This document shows, piece by piece, positions 5,725 through 49,527 of a stretch of 64,000 nt of DNA (position 1 is its first letter; each line of letters begins with the position of its first letter). The notes under the pieces were generated by a model, which had not been told where the DNA came from, searched no databases, and saw only the letters and a program-made list of their open reading frames with translations. Source of the DNA: Ammoniphilus oxalaticus (GTDB taxonomy: Bacteria > Bacillota > Bacilli > Aneurinibacillales > RAOX-1); contig NZ_MCHY01000007.1 in the NCBI RefSeq assembly GCF_003609605.1, positions 124,001 to 188,000 on the forward strand. Reading direction: 5' to 3'. A program made the position numbers and the translations under genes.

Positions 5725-5753
5725 TTATATTAAAAATAAGGTTATGTTATAAT
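5725..5753 (+). promoter_or_regulatory. Predicted sigma-A promoter of the ccdA-like operon
   Basis: A consensus -10 TATAAT at 5748-5753 with a weak -35 TTATAT at 5725-5730, spacer 17. The AAAGGAGG ribosome site follows at 5771-5778. Confidence 0.55.
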
Positions 5754-5786
5754 TTGATTTACTTTCATAGAAAGGAGGAAAGCTAG

Positions 5787-6533
5787 GTGGATCAATTTTC
5801 AGTATTGCTCACGTTTGGCGTCGGCGCTCTTGCTTTTTGCGCCCCTTGAGTGCTTTCCATGATGCCCGCTTTGTTCGGTTATTTAAGCGGGGAAGCAGCC
5901 AGTTCGGTTGCGGATGGAAAAACATTGCGACAAAGATTTTGGAAAAATGCTTTATTTTTTATCCTGGGCTTTATCGTCGTGATGATGACACTCGGGGCGA
6001 TCGCTTCCTTTATTGGCGAATCCGTGCGATCGATTGTGCAGTGGGTACAGGTTGTAGCTGGATTCATCTTGATCTTATTAGGGTTTTACCAGATGAAGAT
6101 CTTGCGATTTAAGCTTCCAAACCAACTAGTTAAGCTTGAAACAGCGGCAACGGGTTCAGTGGGCTCGGTTAAACCTGGGTACGTTCGTTCTTTTGTAGCG
6201 GGCATGGTAATCGCGCCTGGGTGGGGTCCGATCTTTTTAGGAACCGTTTTACTCGTGATTACGGTCAACGGTAATTTTCTAAGCAATTTGGCCCTCATGT
6301 TTGCTTATTGTTTAGGTTTCGCCCTTATGTTTTTGCTCTCATTCCTGTTTTTTGAGCCGCTGCGACTTTTGACTCAAAAATTGGGCGACAAAATGAGACG
6401 GGTTGAACAAGCAGGCGGAGCCTTGATGATGTCGATTGGTGTCCTCATGGTCGTTGGTAAGTTGAATTGGATTACCGATTTAGGAAAATGGAAAATTAGC
6501 GTGGCCATTAAAGGATTGCTTGGAATGAACTAA
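5787..6533 (+). CDS. CcdA-like membrane protein with in-frame TGA (predicted selenoprotein)
   Basis: Thiol-disulfide membrane transporter of the CcdA/DsbD family, 248 aa with about six membrane segments, if the TGA at 5847-5849 is read as selenocysteine 21. The start is GTG 5787, eight bases after AAAGGAGG. The first membrane segment then reads GVGALAFCAP-U-VLSMMPALFGYLSGE, which lines up residue for residue with the conserved CcdA motif (SPCVLPL.P..LSYLSG); the TGA sits on its redox cysteine. The TGA splits the frame, so a conventional call would start at 5850 and lose the first helix. The second redox cysteine usually found in the GW.PC.GP motif is absent here (APGWGPIFLG), but Cys18 makes a CxxU pair with residue 21. 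First gene of a five-gene operon with TusA, DsrE and OsmC-like proteins, which suggests moving reducing power or sulfur across the membrane. Confidence 0.88.
5847..5891 (+). promoter_or_regulatory. TGA codon and SECIS-like hairpin in ccdA-like gene
   Basis: The in-frame TGA (5847-5849) is followed by a perfect 7-bp stem, CCCGCTT at 5865-5871 with AAGCGGG at 5885-5891, around a 13-base loop that begins TG. The loop starts 22 nt after the TGA. A bacterial SECIS is a stem-loop inside the coding sequence just downstream of the UGA, with a G near the start of the loop; this fits. Confidence 0.7.
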
Positions 6534-6548
6534 GCGAGGTGAAGTATC

Positions 6549-6779
6549 TTGTATCAAGTGGCTAGGGTGTATGACGCCGGTCCAACAGGATGCGGTGAAT
6601 TGATCATGAATTTGTTTATGACGATGAAAAAGATGGAGTCGCAACAGATCATTGAAGTGATCTCATATGATCTGGGCGCGCGAGAAGATATCCCCGCCTG
6701 GTGCCGACTACAAGGTCATACGTTATTAGACCGTAAAGACGAAGGCGGCATCCATCACTATTATATTCAAAAAAAATAA
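6549..6779 (+). CDS. TusA-like sulfurtransferase family protein
   Basis: Small cytoplasmic protein of 76 aa with the TusA (SirA-like) fold pattern. Near the N-terminus the conserved cysteine sits in DAGPTGCGEL instead of the usual CPxP motif, followed by an amphipathic helix, a strand and a second cysteine in IPAWCR. TusA proteins carry sulfur as a persulfide between partners. Start is TTG 6549, seven bases after GAGGTG. It lies 15 bp downstream of the CcdA-like gene and 22 bp upstream of the DsrE-like gene. The PxWCR cysteine is shared with the N-terminal half of the OsmC fusion at 7177, which suggests two related carriers in one pathway. Confidence 0.75.
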   Translation: MYQVARVYDAGPTGCGELIMNLFMTMKKMESQQIIEVISYDLGAREDIPAWCRLQGHTLLDRKDEGGIHHYYIQKK

Positions 6780-6801: not shown

Positions 6802-7161
6802 ATGTCAAAATTAGCAGTGAGTATTACAAGCGCAAAAAATGATTCGGATAAAGCGACAGTAGGTTTTGTTGTCGCCAACGCCGCGGTCGCGTCTGGTCAG
6901 GAAACGGTTGTATTTCTTAATGTGGAAGGATCGTATTTAGCGTCGAAAGGGTATGCTGATGAAATCCATGAAGAAGGTTTTGCGCCATTGAAACAATTAA
7001 TGGATCAATTTATAGAAGCTGGCGGGACAGTTTGGGTGTGCAGCCCTTGCTACAATAAGCGTGATTTAACCGAGGAGCAACTAATTGCTGGGGCGACGAT
7101 TGTCGGCGGAGCAAGGTTAGTGGAATTTTTATCGCAAGGCGCCGCTTGTATTACATACTAG
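6802..7161 (+). CDS. DsrE/DsrF-like family protein
   Basis: A 119-aa cytoplasmic protein of the DsrE superfamily, whose members bind and pass on sulfane sulfur. The Rossmann-like layout is visible: an N-terminal strand, a helix after AVASGQET, and a conserved cysteine pair in TVWVCSPCY near residue 78, where sulfur-carrying DsrE/TusD proteins have their active cysteine. ATG 6802 follows GGAGG. Its position between two TusA-like genes supports a sulfur relay. A peroxiredoxin-family label is sometimes given to such proteins, without enzymatic support. Confidence 0.82.
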   Translation: MSKLAVSITSAKNDSDKATVGFVVANAAVASGQETVVFLNVEGSYLASKGYADEIHEEGFAPLKQLMDQFIEAGGTVWVCSPCYNKRDLTEEQLIAGATIVGGARLVEFLSQGAACITY

Positions 7162-7176
7162 GAGGCATAAAAAACA

Positions 7177-7896
7177 ATGGACTTTCCAAACCCACAGGCG
7201 ATCTGTGATGGCGGAGACCTGGACTGCGGTTCAGGTCTTCTGCTCATCATTAAAAATAGTATCGATCCATTGCAAGTTGGAAACGTGTTAGAAGTGCGAA
7301 GTAGAGATAAAACGGTTGCGGATGATTTGCCGATCTGGTGTCGGATGGTCAAGCATGATTTTATCGGCGCGCGACCGAATGAACTGGATGTGAGCTATTT
7401 CATTCGTAAAGGTGGGGAGGAGGACGATTTACAACAAGATTTAGAAGCGGCCCGAGGCTATCAGTGGGCGGTTCGTGTTCGCGGTGAGGCGGGCGCGACA
7501 GCGCAAATTTATAGCCGCAATCATTCGTTTCGATCGGGTCAACCCGCTGATTTCAGCGCGCAAGTCGATCAACCCAGCAGCGTTGATTATTTATTGGCTG
7601 CGCTCGGCTCTTGTTTGACGGTCGGGTTTCAACTTAACTGTTCCCGCCAAAACCTAATCATAGATGCGGTCGAATGCAGTTTGCGCGGAAGACTAGACAA
7701 TGTGCTCTATCATTTGCAACTGGAAGATACGGGCACACCTGCCTTTTCTAAGATAACCGGAACGTTTTATGTCAGTTCGCCTGAAGAGGAAGACAAATTA
7801 GAAGAAGTTTGGCAACGCGTAATTGAACGTTCGCCGATCTACCAAACATTATGTAAACAGGTAGAGTTGAAAATTAATTTATCGGTTGTATTTTAA
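7177..7896 (+). CDS. TusA-like / OsmC-like fusion protein
   Basis: A 239-aa cytoplasmic fusion. Residues 1-75 are TusA-like: CDGGDLDCGSGLLLI carries the N-terminal cysteine and LPIWCRMVKHDF the second, matching the separate TusA-like protein encoded at 6549. Residues about 95-239 are OsmC/Ohr-like: SSVDYLLAALGSC is the OsmC signature with its first reactive cysteine, and further cysteines occur at LNCSRQN, VECSL and TLCKQ. OsmC-family proteins reduce peroxides or bind reactive sulfur species. ATG 7177 lies eight bases after AGGAGG and 15 bp after the DsrE-like gene. The fusion argues that the TusA sulfur carrier hands its cargo to the OsmC thiols. Confidence 0.8.
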   Translation: MDFPNPQAICDGGDLDCGSGLLLIIKNSIDPLQVGNVLEVRSRDKTVADDLPIWCRMVKHDFIGARPNELDVSYFIRKGGEEDDLQQDLEAARGYQWAVRVRGEAGATAQIYSRNHSFRSGQPADFSAQVDQPSSVDYLLAALGSCLTVGFQLNCSRQNLIIDAVECSLRGRLDNVLYHLQLEDTGTPAFSKITGTFYVSSPEEEDKLEEVWQRVIERSPIYQTLCKQVELKINLSVVF

Positions 7897-7920: not shown

Positions 7921-9087
7921 ATGTCATTGCCATTATTTCCAACCACAGTCGTCGGAAGTTGGCCACGGACGAGAGAAGTGCTTGTTGGCCTAAGAGAAAA
8001 AAGAGCGGGGCGGATAACGGACGAAGAGTTTCAAAAAATCGCTGACCAAGCGACGCTTGATTGTTTGCGAGCTCAAGAGGAAGTTGGTTTAGATATTGTG
8101 TCCGATGGGGAGCAACGGCGCGATAATTTTATCTCTTTTGTCGCGGAAAAACTAGACAACGTGAAGATGTTAACCGTTTCCGAATTACTCGACTATGTTG
8201 AAGATAAAGCCGGCTTCGAAGAGATTCTTGGGGCGTTAGATGTGCCCGCATATTCGCTTTCCAACCCAGCCGCCGTCGGTAAAATTAAAAGAAAAACGTC
8301 ACTTGCGCTGGATGAATATGAATTTTTGCGCCAACACACTGACCGTCCTATTAAAATCGCTTTACCAGGTCCGTACCTTTTAACGCGGTCAATGTGGGTG
8401 GAAGGGTTATCTGCGGCGACGTATCCTACGAAAGAGTCATTAGCGGAAGATGTCGTTCGGATTTTACGAGAAGAGCTAGAGGATTTGATTAAGGCAGGCG
8501 TCTTCTTTATTCAACTAGATGAACCAGTCTTGACTGAACTTGTTTTTACACAGAAGAACGCGAATCGGACATTTATGTGCGGCGCTCTGACAGCGAAAGC
8601 GGACAAAGAGGAGGAGCTTCGTTTTGCGACAGATCTGATTAATCAAGTAGTCGATGATATGCGTGGACGAGGAACGCTAATTGGCGTTCATATTTGTCGC
8701 GGCAACTGGAGCACTCAGGAGGACGTTCTTTTACGCGGGCCTTATTCGCCGCTGATTCCATACTTGGAGCAAATGGATGTTGACCAATTCATTCTTGAAT
8801 ATGCGACGCCGCGCGCGGGGGAACTTGATGTGATCAAGAGCCTCGAAGGGAAGCAGCTAGGTCTAGGTATTGTCAATCCTCGAACAGAGGAGATTGAGTC
8901 TATTGAACAACTCGTAGAGCGGGGAAGAGAGGCGGCTAATTTTTTAGCGCCTGAGCATATTTTTCTCAATCCTGACTGCGGTTTTGGGACATTTGCCCAG
9001 CGACCGATGAACTCAATCGAGAACGCTAAACAGAAACTAAAGGTGATGGTTGAGGCCGCCAAACGATTGAGACAACAAATAGATTGA
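7921..9087 (+). CDS. Cobalamin-independent methionine synthase family protein (core MetE-like)
   Basis: 388-aa cytoplasmic enzyme corresponding to the C-terminal catalytic barrel of MetE, without the N-terminal duplicated domain. It starts with the family signature PTTVVGSWPR; zinc-ligand positions are present as HICRGNW (His and Cys), a Glu in LDEPVL, and NPDCGFG near the C-terminus. Core MetE proteins make methionine from homocysteine with a methyl donor that may not be methyl-folate. ATG 7921 is chosen because GGGAGG at 7905-7910 precedes it by ten bases. It closes the operon with the sulfur-carrier genes, hinting that the carried sulfur ends in methionine or that the enzyme recycles a thiol methyl group. 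Confidence 0.87.
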   Translation: MSLPLFPTTVVGSWPRTREVLVGLREKRAGRITDEEFQKIADQATLDCLRAQEEVGLDIVSDGEQRRDNFISFVAEKLDNVKMLTVSELLDYVEDKAGFEEILGALDVPAYSLSNPAAVGKIKRKTSLALDEYEFLRQHTDRPIKIALPGPYLLTRSMWVEGLSAATYPTKESLAEDVVRILREELEDLIKAGVFFIQLDEPVLTELVFTQKNANRTFMCGALTAKADKEEELRFATDLINQVVDDMRGRGTLIGVHICRGNWSTQEDVLLRGPYSPLIPYLEQMDVDQFILEYATPRAGELDVIKSLEGKQLGLGIVNPRTEEIESIEQLVERGREAANFLAPEHIFLNPDCGFGTFAQRPMNSIENAKQKLKVMVEAAKRLRQQID

Positions 9088-11426: not shown

Positions 11427-13556
11427 TCATGTGTCTTTGACGCGAAGCAATCGCAAGCCATTTAACGTGACGAGAATCGTCGCTCCCATATCTGAGAAAA
11501 TGGCTAACCACAACGTTAACCAACCAGGAATGACAAGTAACAACGCAATTAATTTAATCCCGATTGCGAATGAAATATTTTGTTTTATGATGCTCATTGT
11601 CTTGCGGCTCAAACCTACTGCAAACGGCAATTTCTGAATATCATCCGCCATCAGCGCAATATCGGCTGTTTCGAGAGCTGTATCGGCGCCGATGCCGCCC
11701 ATCGCGATTCCAACCGTGGACGCGGCTAAAGCTGGCGCATCATTGACGCCATCTCCAACCATCGCGACCCGCTTACCGTCATCGCGTAGTTTCTTAATAA
11801 ACGCAAGTTTGTCTTGCGGTAACAATTCCGCTTTTGTTTCCTGAATCCCTACGGAATTGGCGATTGTTTTCGCTGCGGCCTGATTGTCTCCTGTTAGCAT
11901 TAAAGTCTGTTTTATGCCTAAATGATGCAATCGTTTAATTACGCCTGCAGCGCCCGAACGGATTTGATCGCCGACAGCAATCAGCAATTGAAGACGTTTG
12001 TCTGTTCCCAACAACATCACAGTGTAACCTTGCTCTTGCAGATATTTCACTTGTTGCTTTATATCATCCGTTAATTCAACTTCTAATTCTCCGAAAAGTT
12101 TTGGGCTGCCTAAATAATACCATTCATTATTTATTTTTCCTTTGATTCCTCTCCCTGTTAAAGAGGTAAACTGGTCAACCTGCAGCTCGCTATAATCGAC
12201 GCTCTCCTCTTCCGCCCTTTTTATAATGGAAGCGGCAAGTGGATGCGCCGATCCTTTTTCCAAAGCAGCTGCGATTTTAAGCGCTTCGGCTTGATCCACA
12301 TCGTATGCGATCAATTCTGCCACTTGAGGAACGCCATACGTTAACGTACCCGTTTTATCAAATGCAATCGCTGAAATTCGTCCGAGCTCTTCCAAATGAA
12401 CGCCGCCTTTAATCAATATTCCATTGCGGGCGGCATTGCCAACTGCAGTTACGATTGAAACGGGTGTAGAAATAATTAAGGCGCACGGACAACCGACGAC
12501 TAACACGGCTAGCCCCTCATAAATCCACTTATTCCAATCCGCTCCAAAAAGAAGCGGCGGAACGATGATAACACAAAGAGACAAGAGCATAATCAAAGGT
12601 GTATAATATTTCGCAAAACGATCGACGAATGCTTGCGTTGGGGCCCGTTCCGCTTGCGCTTCCTCAACCAAATGAATAATTTTCGCAAGCGTCGTATCCT
12701 CCGAGCGTTTGGTTACGGTTACTTCAAGCAGCCCTTCTTCATTTAACGTGCCCGCATAAACAGAATCACCAAGCCCTTTTTCAACGGGGATCGGCTCACC
12801 TGTAATTGGCGCTTGGTTAACTGTCGAGAATCCTTTCTGAACAATGCCATCCATCGCTATTTTTTGGCCTGGTTTAACGATCATTTGGTCACCGATCACG
12901 ATTTCTTCTACTGAAATAAGCAGTTCTTTGTCACCGCGTCTTACCCATGTTTCTTTTGGCGCAATATCGATGAGCGATCGAATGGATTGGCGGGCGCGAT
13001 CCATGGAGTATCTTTCAAGGGCTTCGCTGATCGCAAACAACAACACAACTGTTGCCGCTTCCCCCCACTCCCCGATGATTCCCGCTCCGATTACAGCGAC
13101 AGTCATTAAGGTTCGCATATCAAAATCAAAACGGACCAATTGTTGTAAGCCAGCCCTAAACAAGCGATGCCCGCCAATGATCATGGAACTGGCATAAAAC
13201 AGGACCGGAACTACTGCGTGCGTTGAACCATACTTACCGATGAACCAGCCGAGTATGAGCAGGAGTGTGGAGATAAGGACAGGGATATTTTGTTTCTTTT
13301 TCCACTGTGGACCGCGCTTAGCTTCTAGCTGCTGGCCCTCGGGTATCACGGTTATGTTTTCGAAAGCTCCCGCTTGTTCTAACTGCTCAACTGTCGCTAC
13401 TCCATATAAGGTCAATTTGGCCGCTCCAAAATTAACGATGGCGTCCTGTACCGTCGTGATCGCCTTAACATTCTTCTCGAACCGAGAAGCGCATCCTGCT
13501 CATGTAAAGCCATGAATCCGATAGACGGATTTTTGTAAACTTCGCGCTTGACTCAT
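11427..13556 (-). CDS. cadA: CadA/ZntA-type heavy-metal P-ATPase with in-frame TGA (predicted selenoprotein)
   Basis: Metal efflux ATPase (P1B type), 709 aa when the TGA at 13502-13500 is read as selenocysteine 19. The start is ATG 13556, after GGAAGGAAG. Residues 14-29 then read IHGFT-U-AGCASRFEKNV, the metal-binding HMA motif of CadA (GFTCA.CA..FEKNV), with Sec in place of the first metal-binding Cys and the second at Cys22. The rest is intact: TGEP near 252, the membrane CPC motif at 356-358, the phosphorylation site DKTGT at 400-404, the SAHP locus and GDGVNDAP. A conventional call would begin at 13415 and lose the whole HMA domain. It follows its ArsR repressor by 30 bp. Cd, Zn, Pb or Co are likely substrates; a selenolate ligand should favour soft metals. 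Confidence 0.9.
13473..13502 (-). promoter_or_regulatory. TGA codon and SECIS-like hairpin in cadA
   Basis: On the minus strand the TGA (13502-13500) is followed by CTTCTC (13489-13484), a GGTTC loop and GAGAAG (13478-13473). The stem is perfect, and a further G-C pair can close the loop to three bases. The loop starts 16 nt after the TGA with GG, resembling the G-rich loop of the E. coli formate dehydrogenase SECIS. Confidence 0.75.
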
Positions 13557-13586
13557 TACCTTCACTTCCTTCCTGTTCCCACGGCT

Positions 13587-45096: not shown

Positions 45097-48058
45097 GTTG
45101 TTCGCCTCCATTTTCTAACCATTCTGGGATCGGCGTGAAGTCTGCCCGTTTCCATTTGTCTTCCACTTTGATGCCGATTTGAGGGACACGGTTACCAAAA
45201 CGATGATTCACATCAGGCAAAGGTGGTTCTCCTTGCGCTTCGAGCACGACCATTTTCACGTTCATTTCCTTGTAATTTGGCGTATGGGTAATCCGATCAT
45301 GATAGCTACTCGTCAAACGGTTCACCATGTCTTCATCCGTTGTTGAGTTCATCGTTAGATATAGCTCATTCCCTTTTACTGTATCTGTTACATGAGCTCT
45401 CACTTCGACCTCTCCATATGGGGAAGTCAACTGAACTAAAGCTCCATCGTCAATCCCTCGTTGTTCAGCTAATTCCGGCGAAACCTCTAGCCACGGCTGA
45501 GATACTTTGTGAACAATCCCCGGCACACGGTACGTTAAATTCCCTTCATGGAAATGTTCAAGCAACCTTCCGTTGTTTAAGTGCAGATCATAATCTTCTC
45601 CAGGATCAAATGGCGGCGTCCAATCGACTGGGAACAAGCGGGCTTTGCCATCTGGAAAAGCAAATTTATCGGTGTAAAGCAGTTCAGTGTCTGTTCCATC
45701 GGCTTGAACTGGCCATAGTTGCGAGTTGAACCCTTCCAAACGTTCGTAGCTAACCCCCGCAAAAACAGGCGCCAACCGCGCGGCTTCGGCCATAATTTCG
45801 CTTGGATGCGTATAATTCCAATTGGCTCCGAGTTTGTTAGCGAGCAGTTGGAAAATTTCCCAATCGGGTTTCGACTCGCCCATCGGTTCTAACACACGGT
45901 AAAACCGTTGAATGCGTCGCTCCGTGTTCGTAAAGGTTCCCTCTTTTTCCAAACTCGGCGCGGCTGGCAACACAACATCCGCAAACTGAGCGGTTCTTGA
46001 AAAAAAGATGTCCTGGACAACAAAAAAGTCTAGTTTTTCAAACGCAGAGTCAACATGGTTGCTATTCGAGTCGACAATGGCCATTTCTTCTCCGAACAAA
46101 TACATCGCTTTGAGCTTGCCTTTATGAATCATCTCGACCATTTGATGGTTGTTCAATCCAGGCTTAGCGGGTAGCTCAACACCCCAAGCATGCCCGTATT
46201 TTTTCCGAACTTGCGCGTCTTCCACGGGCTCATATCCAGGCATCCAAGCAGGCATCGTGCCGAAATCGCAAGCGCCTTGAACGTTATTATGGCCACGCAG
46301 CGGATAAGCTCCAGCCCCTGGTTTACCGTAATTGCCCGTAACGAGCAACAAATTAGATATAGCTGTGCTCGTATCCGTCGCCCCGAGGTGTTGGGTAACC
46401 CCCATCCCCCATAAAATACAGACACCTTCTGCTTCGTGTACCATTTTAGCCAGTTGGATCAAGGTCTGTTGCTCAATTCCTGTCGTTTCTTCAGCGTATT
46501 CCAGCGTAAACTTTTCTAAAGATGCAACGTATTCTTCATATCCATTGACACGTTCTTCAATAAACGATTGCGCCCCCCACCCTTGATCAATGATATATTT
46601 GGTAATCGCATTCAATAACACCAAGTCTGTCGATGGTTTAGGGTGAATAAACAAATCCGCTCGTTCTGCAAGTTCATTCTTCCTTAAATCAACAACCGCT
46701 AATTTTTGCCCATGTAATTTATGAGCCCGTTTAATCCGAGTTGCCAACACGGGATGGGATTCCGCGGGATTCGCTCCAATCACGAGCACGAGACCAGCGG
46801 AGTAAATATCTTGAATCGTTCCAGAGTCCCCTCCGATTCCGACAGTTCGAATTAGACCAGCGGTAGCTGGGGACTGACAATATCGTGAACAGTTGTCCAC
46901 ATTATTTGTACCCATCACTGCGCGGGCCAACTTTTGAAACAAATAGTTCTCTTCATTCGTACACTTCGATGAGGCAATGTATCCGATGGAATCAGAACCC
47001 TCTCGTTCCTTGATTTCTGTTAACTTAGAGGCGATTAAATCAAGCGCCTCATCCCAGCTCGCCTCGACAAAGCGGTCTCCTTTTCGGATCAATGGCTTTG
47101 TTAACCGCTCCTCGCTGTTGACAAAATCCCAGCCAAATTTCCCTTTAATGCAAGTGGAAATTCCGTTGGCAGGCGCCTCCTGTTGCGGCTCGACTTTTAG
47201 TATTTTCCGATCTTTTGTCCAGATTTCAAAACTACAGCCAACCCCGCAATACGTACAGACTGTTTTTGTCCGCTTGATCCGAGCTTTTCTCATCGCTGCT
47301 TCCATCTCAGATATCACAAAGATTTCTTTGTAACCTGGCTCGATTTCTTTCGTGAGATCGATCATCGGCTCAAGCGCTTGTTTCGGTATCCCTGTCAAAT
47401 AACCGGCCTCACCGAGCATTGATTTTTCCATTAGAGCATTACAAGGACATACAGTGACACAATGCCCACACGATACGCAGGAGGATTCATCGATCGACAC
47501 ATCGTTATCCCAAATGACGCGGGGATGTTCGCGGTTCCAATCGATCGTTAATGTTTCGTTGACTTGTAAATCTTGACAAGCCTCCACACATAAACCACAT
47601 AAAATACATTGATCTGGTTCGTAACGATAGAATGGATGGGTATTGTCGGGAGGATACGGTTTCGGTTTAAATTCATACTGCTGATGCTCAATTTCGAAAT
47701 ATTCCGCTGTATTATGGACGGTACAATTTCCATTGTTGTTATCGCACACTGTGCAGTACAGTTCATGGCGCGTTAAAATGCGTTCCATTCCTTCACGTTG
47801 AGCCGCCTTCGCCTTGTCTGAAATAGAGCTGATTTCCATGCCCGGTTTAGCTTCAGTCGCGCACGAGCGAACCAGTTCCCCGTTTATTTCAACATAACAT
47901 GTATCACACGACTGGATTGCTCCCAATTGATCATGAAAACAAATACTTGGGATGTACAAGTCTTGTTCTCTTGCCGCCTCTAAAACCTTTTGACCCGGCT
48001 TTGCAAACAAATCTTGGTTATTGATCCGAATCGAAAATTGCTCCTGTCTCGATCCCAT
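45077..48058 (-). CDS. Formate dehydrogenase-like molybdopterin oxidoreductase, alpha subunit (Cys form)
   Basis: 993-aa cytoplasmic oxidoreductase of the YrhE/YjgC family. From the N-terminus: a 2Fe-2S ferredoxin-like domain (SCDTCYVEINGELVRSC), a histidine/cysteine cluster site (HELYCTVCDNNNGNC), two 4Fe-4S sites (CILCGLC, CVSCGHCVTVCPC), the catalytic-domain cluster (CTYCGVGCSFE) and the bis-MGD domain. The catalytic residue is an ordinary cysteine in CSRYCQSPATAG, where some formate dehydrogenases have Sec. ATG 48058 follows AAGGGAG. Oxidation of formate coupled to NAD is likely; no fdhD is in the window. Confidence 0.9.
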   Translation of the reverse strand: MGSRQEQFSIRINNQDLFAKPGQKVLEAAREQDLYIPSICFHDQLGAIQSCDTCYVEINGELVRSCATEAKPGMEISSISDKAKAAQREGMERILTRHELYCTVCDNNNGNCTVHNTAEYFEIEHQQYEFKPKPYPPDNTHPFYRYEPDQCILCGLCVEACQDLQVNETLTIDWNREHPRVIWDNDVSIDESSCVSCGHCVTVCPCNALMEKSMLGEAGYLTGIPKQALEPMIDLTKEIEPGYKEIFVISEMEAAMRKARIKRTKTVCTYCGVGCSFEIWTKDRKILKVEPQQEAPANGISTCIKGKFGWDFVNSEERLTKPLIRKGDRFVEASWDEALDLIASKLTEIKEREGSDSIGYIASSKCTNEENYLFQKLARAVMGTNNVDNCSRYCQSPATAGLIRTVGIGGDSGTIQDIYSAGLVLVIGANPAESHPVLATRIKRAHKLHGQKLAVVDLRKNELAERADLFIHPKPSTDLVLLNAITKYIIDQGWGAQSFIEERVNGYEEYVASLEKFTLEYAEETTGIEQQTLIQLAKMVHEAEGVCILWGMGVTQHLGATDTSTAISNLLLVTGNYGKPGAGAYPLRGHNNVQGACDFGTMPAWMPGYEPVEDAQVRKKYGHAWGVELPAKPGLNNHQMVEMIHKGKLKAMYLFGEEMAIVDSNSNHVDSAFEKLDFFVVQDIFFSRTAQFADVVLPAAPSLEKEGTFTNTERRIQRFYRVLEPMGESKPDWEIFQLLANKLGANWNYTHPSEIMAEAARLAPVFAGVSYERLEGFNSQLWPVQADGTDTELLYTDKFAFPDGKARLFPVDWTPPFDPGEDYDLHLNNGRLLEHFHEGNLTYRVPGIVHKVSQPWLEVSPELAEQRGIDDGALVQLTSPYGEVEVRAHVTDTVKGNELYLTMNSTTDEDMVNRLTSSYHDRITHTPNYKEMNVKMVVLEAQGEPPLPDVNHRFGNRVPQIGIKVEDKWKRADFTPIPEWLENGGEQHGQSHP

Positions 48059-48688: not shown

Positions 48689-49414
48689 TTACGATTTATT
48701 ATTTGGATCGATCTGACAGCCTGTCTCATCACACGCGTCGCCAGAATGCTCATCATCGTTATTGACGATTGAAAGCGGCTGGCTTTCTTGCCATGCTTTG
48801 TCTAACGTTTTTAAAAAGAATTCGCTTGGATGGGCTCCAGAAATCCCATATTTCCGATCTATTACATAAAAAGGGACAGCGCGGACCCCCAACTCCTGAG
48901 CTTCTCGTTGTTCAGTTCGAACTTGTTCACTATACGCGGTACCATCTAGCATCGCGGCGATTTGCTTTGTGTCCAGTCCAACCTCTTCGCCAAGCTCCAA
49001 GAGTGTTTCTCGATCGCTCAGCCGTTTTCCTTCAATAAAGTAAGCGGAAAACAAACGCTCAACCATTTGCGGTTGCTTGCCTGACGCGGTCGCTAATAGC
49101 GTTAACCGATGGGCATCAAACGTATTAGCGGGAATCATCTTGTCAAACTGAAAATCAAGTCCTTCAGCTTGCGCTTGTTGGTTCATATCGGCGTACGTTT
49201 TTTTCGCCTGTTCCCGACTCATCCCATATTTCGTCGCTAGGTTATCATAAGCATCCATTGTCGCATCTTTTGGTTTTTCTGGGTCTAATTCAAAACTTTT
49301 GTAAGTAATTTTAACATGTTCGCTATGAGCAAACTCTTTTAACGCGGCCTCCAGCCGACGAGCGCCAATATAGCAAAACGGTCACATGTAATCAGACCAA
49401 ATTTCAATCTTCAT
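48689..49414 (-). CDS. FrnE/DsbA-family oxidoreductase with in-frame TGA (predicted selenoprotein)
   Basis: 241-aa DsbA-like (FrnE) thioredoxin-fold protein if the TGA at 49384-49382 is read as selenocysteine 11. ATG 49414 follows GGAGGTG; the N-terminus then reads MKIEIWSDYM-U-PFCYIGARRLE, aligning exactly with the FrnE opening (IEIWSD.VCPFCYIG), with Sec at the first, catalytic cysteine of CPFC and the second at Cys14. The conserved later segments are FELDPEKPKD, an SREQAKKTY helix and GVRAVPFYVIDRKYGISGAHP (the cis-Pro loop, shortened). A conventional call would begin at 49258 and lose the active site. The C-terminus has an extra cysteine pair DACDETGC. No signal peptide, so the protein is cytoplasmic. 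Confidence 0.9.
49346..49384 (-). promoter_or_regulatory. TGA codon and SECIS-like hairpin in frnE
   Basis: On the minus strand the TGA (49384-49382) is followed by GGC-G-CTC (49366-49360), an eight-base GTCGGCTG loop and GAG-GCC (49351-49346): six pairs with one bulged G. The loop starts 22 nt after the TGA, the same distance as in the ccdA-like gene. Confidence 0.6.
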
Positions 49415-49527
49415 TCCGACACCTCCATCTTTCATCTATTCTAACTTAGTTTACCAAAGCCATTCAACTCTATGGCGCCGACCGCGTCAGACTATGTACA
49501 TCGTATGAATTTGCTCCTCACTCGCGG

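Follow-up and report, generated by a model that had tools for sequence, protein, structure and literature searches.

A candidate selenocysteine-containing membrane protein of the CcdA/DsbD superfamily, encoded with sulfur-carrier genes in Ammoniphilus oxalaticus

The locus

The window (the whole 64,000-nucleotide stretch of Ammoniphilus oxalaticus DNA that was analysed) includes a five-gene module encoding a CcdA-like membrane protein and TusA, DsrE, TusA-OsmC and MetE-like proteins. The features are given in Table 1. The frame of the first gene is open from GTG 5787 to the stop codon at 6531–6533 and is interrupted by a single in-frame TGA.

Table 1. Features of the candidate selenoprotein gene and of the genes that follow it. 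Positions are those of the window.
Feature	Position	Strand	Remarks
Predicted Sec-containing CcdA/DsbD-TM-like membrane protein	5787..6533	+	248 residues, CAPU motif (Cys18, Sec21)
TGA codon 21, predicted selenocysteine	5847..5849	+	Frame, alignment, conservation
Cys18 codon, new cysteine of the CxxU motif	5838..5840	+	Alignment of homologues and orthologues
Shine-Dalgarno AAAGGAGG	5771..5778	+	8-nt spacing to GTG
-10-like TATAAT	5748..5753	+	Sequence; putative
SECIS-like hairpin	5865..5891	+	7 bp, 13-nt loop, 15 nt after TGA
TusA-like sulfur carrier	6549..6779	+	76 aa
DsrE-like protein, CSPC motif	6802..7161	+	119 aa
TusA-OsmC fusion protein	7177..7896	+	239 aa
MetE-like cobalamin-independent methyltransferase domain protein	7921..9087	+	

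The sequence-only reading had placed the TGA on the redox cysteine of a CcdA-like protein, with both flanks in the same frame, a ribosome-binding site before the GTG and a 7-bp stem downstream. All of these elements were found. The flanks LTFGVGALAFCAP and VLSMMPALFGYLSGE share one frame; strong Shine-Dalgarno sequences lie at the equivalent place in two genomes with close orthologues, G001 (Ammoniphilus resinae) and G002; and TATGTTATAAT occurs upstream of the gene in the window as well as in both of these genomes. The Pfam domain DsbD_TM (PF02683) covers residues 6–222 (2.1e-12), i.e. nearly the full length. The solved CcdA (PDB 5VKV) is matched at 9.3e-9 by a profile that combines the protein with its two nearest orthologues. 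The predicted structure is too poor (pLDDT 46) to be used, so the six-helix topology of a CcdA and the C18–U21 geometry are assumed from the family.

Conservation of the in-frame TGA

The TGA column is occupied by Cys in 36/36 aligned CcdA-type homologues. Bacterial selenoproteins were judged by the criteria of PMC1088965, which include a Cys opposite the TGA in two or more homologues and in over half of them; the presence of selenocysteine (Sec) machinery in the genome was added here as a criterion.

The same TGA is found in six genomes belonging to three families, with orthologue identities of 27–66%. Orthologues from G001 and G002 share 66% and 64% identity, respectively, with the window protein; those from G562, G715 and G662 (two other families) share 27–33%. 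The exact FCAPU motif is present in all six carriers. As five orthologues keep the TGA, a misread TGT or TGC, which the sequence-only reading had named as a refuting outcome along with a lack of Sec-decoding genes, is excluded in practice.

In the three genomes tested, dN/dS upstream of the TGA is 0.01–0.11. Downstream of it, synonymous differences reach 0.77–0.83 (saturated) and dN is 0.16–0.27. Judged by these rates, the gene is under purifying selection on both sides of the codon in these three genomes. The Cys column, the conservation in six genomes and the saturated synonymous divergence downstream in the three put the placement of the TGA far beyond chance. In a phylogenetic tree, for which the tool gave a warning of long branches, the six predicted Sec forms make up one clade apart from the Cys-containing CcdAs (support 99/97; 98% of bootstrap trees).

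Distribution

G562, G715 and G662 come from a class-wide sample of 399 genomes. A phylum-wide sample of 398 genomes, few of which belong to the class, yielded no further Sec form. Scoring in both samples was confined to about six top candidates per genome, so the known distribution is a lower bound. A scan of genome contigs matched Ammoniphilus resinae only. The plasmid collection gave distant CcdA homologues only (<60% identity), and scans of IMG/VR gave no match. When the TusA-OsmC protein was searched for in the 398-genome phylum sample, its own genome was the sole match.

The SECIS-like hairpin

The arms of the hairpin are CCCGCTT (5865–5871) and AAGCGGG (5885–5891). A hairpin is found at the expected place in 6/6 carriers. 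Four of the five orthologues have a hairpin that folds better than shuffled sequences (z: G001, -2.16; G562, -2.18; G715, -2.69; G662, -3.41), but those of the window (-0.29) and G002 (+0.49) fold no better. The second clade shows a bulged hairpin of 13 bp with 92% of cells paired and two compensatory changes; controls slid along the sequence reach at most 46%. Covariation counts are small and within reach of shuffles (three sequences per clade). Synonymous change is lower in codons 27–43 than in later codons (8/15 versus 81/101, p = 0.04, for a region picked to fit the hairpin). The loop of the window hairpin is large (13 nt), unlike the 5-nt GGUCU loop found with the FdhA genes of the same genome. 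The element is thus convincing in some genomes and just suggestive in the window; as evidence for Sec, it appears supporting rather than decisive.

Selenocysteine machinery and other genes with an in-frame TGA

The genome encodes the complete decoding machinery: selA (589 bits), selB (391 bits), selD (429 bits) and selC, the gene of a tRNA-Sec with a TCA anticodon. The selD gene carries one in-frame TGA of its own. In relatives, selB was found in G001–G003 and selA in G562, G715 and G662; selA or selB scores above cut-off in all six carrier genomes. Two FdhA genes of the genome carry an in-frame TGA within NRTUHAPS, followed by a hairpin with a GGUCU loop. A further formate dehydrogenase alpha subunit gene, located in the window (45254–47263, minus strand), has no TGA.

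Two other selenoproteins are predicted in the window. The first is a heavy-metal P-type ATPase (11427–13565, minus strand; TGA at 13502–13500), whose HMA motif reads GFTUAGCA (UxxC) and whose gene is preceded by an ArsR-like gene; the Sec form of this family is already catalogued. The second is a DsbA/FrnE-like oxidoreductase (48689–49435, minus strand; TGA at 49384–49382) with the motif WSDYMUPFCYIG (UxxC); DsbA-like Sec forms are known.

The sulfur-carrier module

The five-gene module is found in five of the six carriers. The CcdA gene comes first in the window, G001 and G002 and last in G562 and G715. In G662 it is also last, and a separate TusA gene is lacking. That the grouping is kept despite a changed order argues for a shared function.

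A related genome, G003, harbours the module (L054, 5919–8720), but all that is left of its CcdA gene encodes roughly 54 C-terminal residues, and its MetE gene is split into pieces. It is a natural case of loss in a Sec-utilising relative.

Redox residues

The protein was compared with a classical CcdA. The DsbD_TM domain is present over the whole length, and the redox residue of TM1 (SPC) is found as Sec in APU, aligned to Cys. The second redox Cys, in the TM4 motif (TPC), is absent from all six carriers: AAGWTPC, found in most homologues, is replaced by IAPGWG or LAFGWQ. Conversely, Cys18, three residues before the Sec, is invariant in the six, whereas I, V, L or F is found there in 36/36 homologues. 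Apart from Cys18 and Sec21, the six share no conserved thiol/selenol residue. With the TM4 Cys gone and Cys18 gained, the redox pair seems, from these alignments, to have given up its two-helix arrangement for a single CxxU motif. The sequence-only proposal of a Sec form of CcdA therefore stands as to the replacement of Cys by Sec but not as to a simple substitution in an otherwise ordinary CcdA.

Interpretation

Codon 21 is very probably read as selenocysteine, so that the gene would encode a selenoprotein. Translation would start at GTG 5787, and the UGA would be decoded by SelB and tRNA-Sec, aided by the hairpin just downstream. The predicted product, a polytopic membrane protein, belongs to the CcdA/DsbD transmembrane superfamily and there to a distinct subfamily with a relocated redox pair. 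It may well act as a membrane thiol/selenol redox relay. With Sec at the canonical attack position and a resolving Cys at a distance of three residues, Cys18 and Sec21 (C18-A-P-U21, first helix) would most likely cycle via a selenenylsulfide. Electrons or sulfane sulfur would cross the membrane in this way, linking a partner outside with the TusA, DsrE (CSPC) and TusA-OsmC proteins of the cytoplasm (direction and cargo are putative). The MetE-like methyl/thiol enzyme would work with these sulfur carriers. The whole is read as a new selenoprotein subfamily, a putative selenol-thiol relay in the membrane that would serve a sulfur-carrier module.

With the TM4 Cys of the electron shuttle missing and sulfur carriers as partners, sulfane sulfur competes seriously with electrons as the cargo. 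It is possible, though tentative, that the protein is no electron shuttle but conducts sulfane sulfur (or selenium) through the membrane in a Sec-dependent way. The CxxU motif of one helix would take up a sulfur atom in the form of a selenyl-persulfide and hand it to TusA, DsrE or TusA-OsmC inside. If true, this would give the CcdA fold a new function.

It is improbable that the protein is a selenoprotein whose CAPU motif binds and moves a metal or metalloid ion, in the manner of Sec-containing MerT or heavy-metal ATPases, instead of taking part in thiol redox chemistry. CxxU motifs are found in a Sec-containing mercuric transport protein (PMC13188914, Table 1), the predicted Sec-containing ATPase is encoded 5 kb away and the loss of the TM4 Cys fits such a role; however, the partners conserved in distant genomes are sulfur carriers and the conserved module is devoid of any metal gene.

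Three explanations dispense with selenium. According to the first, translation truly ends at the TGA: after a 20-codon leader it would restart at GTG 5850 or at an ATG close by, giving a protein of 227 residues. In the window this GTG directly follows the TGA, and the shorter product is the one that an ORF caller would annotate. Yet the codon after the TGA is ATT or CTN in other orthologues. The upstream peptide is conserved, as its dN/dS indicates, and ends in an invariant FCAP; its start is preceded by a strong Shine-Dalgarno sequence in the three genomes compared. The shortened protein would begin halfway through TM1 and lack the most conserved motif of the family. Re-initiation is thus very unlikely.

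According to the second, readthrough of the UGA inserts an ordinary amino acid such as Trp. Low-level UGA readthrough occurs in Bacilli. However, homologues have Cys and never Trp at this position, the carrier genomes possess Sec machinery, and TGA serves as an ordinary stop in 6/30 long ORFs of the window; there is little room left for this explanation. Sequencing error or pseudogenization, a frequent source of in-frame stops and one illustrated by the broken copy of G003, can be dismissed in view of the identical codon shared by six genomes from three families, and of the purifying selection on both sides of it in the three genomes measured.

The selenocysteine reading, if correct, would add one family to the catalogue of 119 (PMC13188914) and place Sec centrally in a polytopic membrane redox protein. 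The five-gene module would offer a direct genetic handle on the benefit of Sec in membrane sulfur chemistry. ORF callers that take the TGA as a stop truncate or miss the gene.

Comparison with known systems

No CcdA is among the 119 prokaryotic selenoprotein families inventoried in 2026 (PMC13188914). No model of NCBIfam 20 covers the window protein at cut-off, and the literature search found no description of a Sec-containing CcdA. One correction to the sequence-only reading is due here: a Sec protein with a DsbD domain, TsoB, has been described, although its Sec pair appears to lie elsewhere.

TsoB (NF045694; Haft and Tolstoy 2025) is a selenoprotein resembling a rhodanese/DsbD fusion, with two Sec in a UxxxxU motif (PMC13188914). 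It is the only catalogued selenoprotein found to share the DsbD-type membrane domain, and its model is the best NCBIfam match of the window protein (5.9e-9; 34.6 bits for a cut-off of 805; DsbD part only). The window protein differs by the lack of a rhodanese part and by a single Sec, in CAPU. When changed residues are scored, the TsoB profile favours Cys (or Sec) both at site 21 and at the site in TM4; a second Cys or Sec five residues to either side of site 21 brings no gain. By this indirect comparison with the profile, the Sec pair of TsoB appears to lie outside site 21.

The YeeE/YedE thiosulfate transporter selenoprotein (GUxSG) is likewise a membrane protein with a reactive Cys/Sec and a TusA-like partner (PMC13188914, PMC11582611). 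Its fold and motif are unrelated, and the likeness is one of analogy only. Sec forms of DsrE-like and OsmC-like families exist elsewhere (PMC13188914, Table 1), whereas the corresponding partners in this module carry Cys.

A further comparison is with CcdA (PDB 5VKV) and the transmembrane part of DsbD (PF02683), which share the domain and the position of the first redox Cys, here Sec. They have GW-TPC in TM4, whereas the proteins described here have GWG or GWQ without Cys, a new Cys at -3, a separate clade and a module of sulfur-carrier genes. The window protein would thus be a CcdA-fold protein in which the cysteine pair of two helices has been exchanged for a CxxU pair in one.
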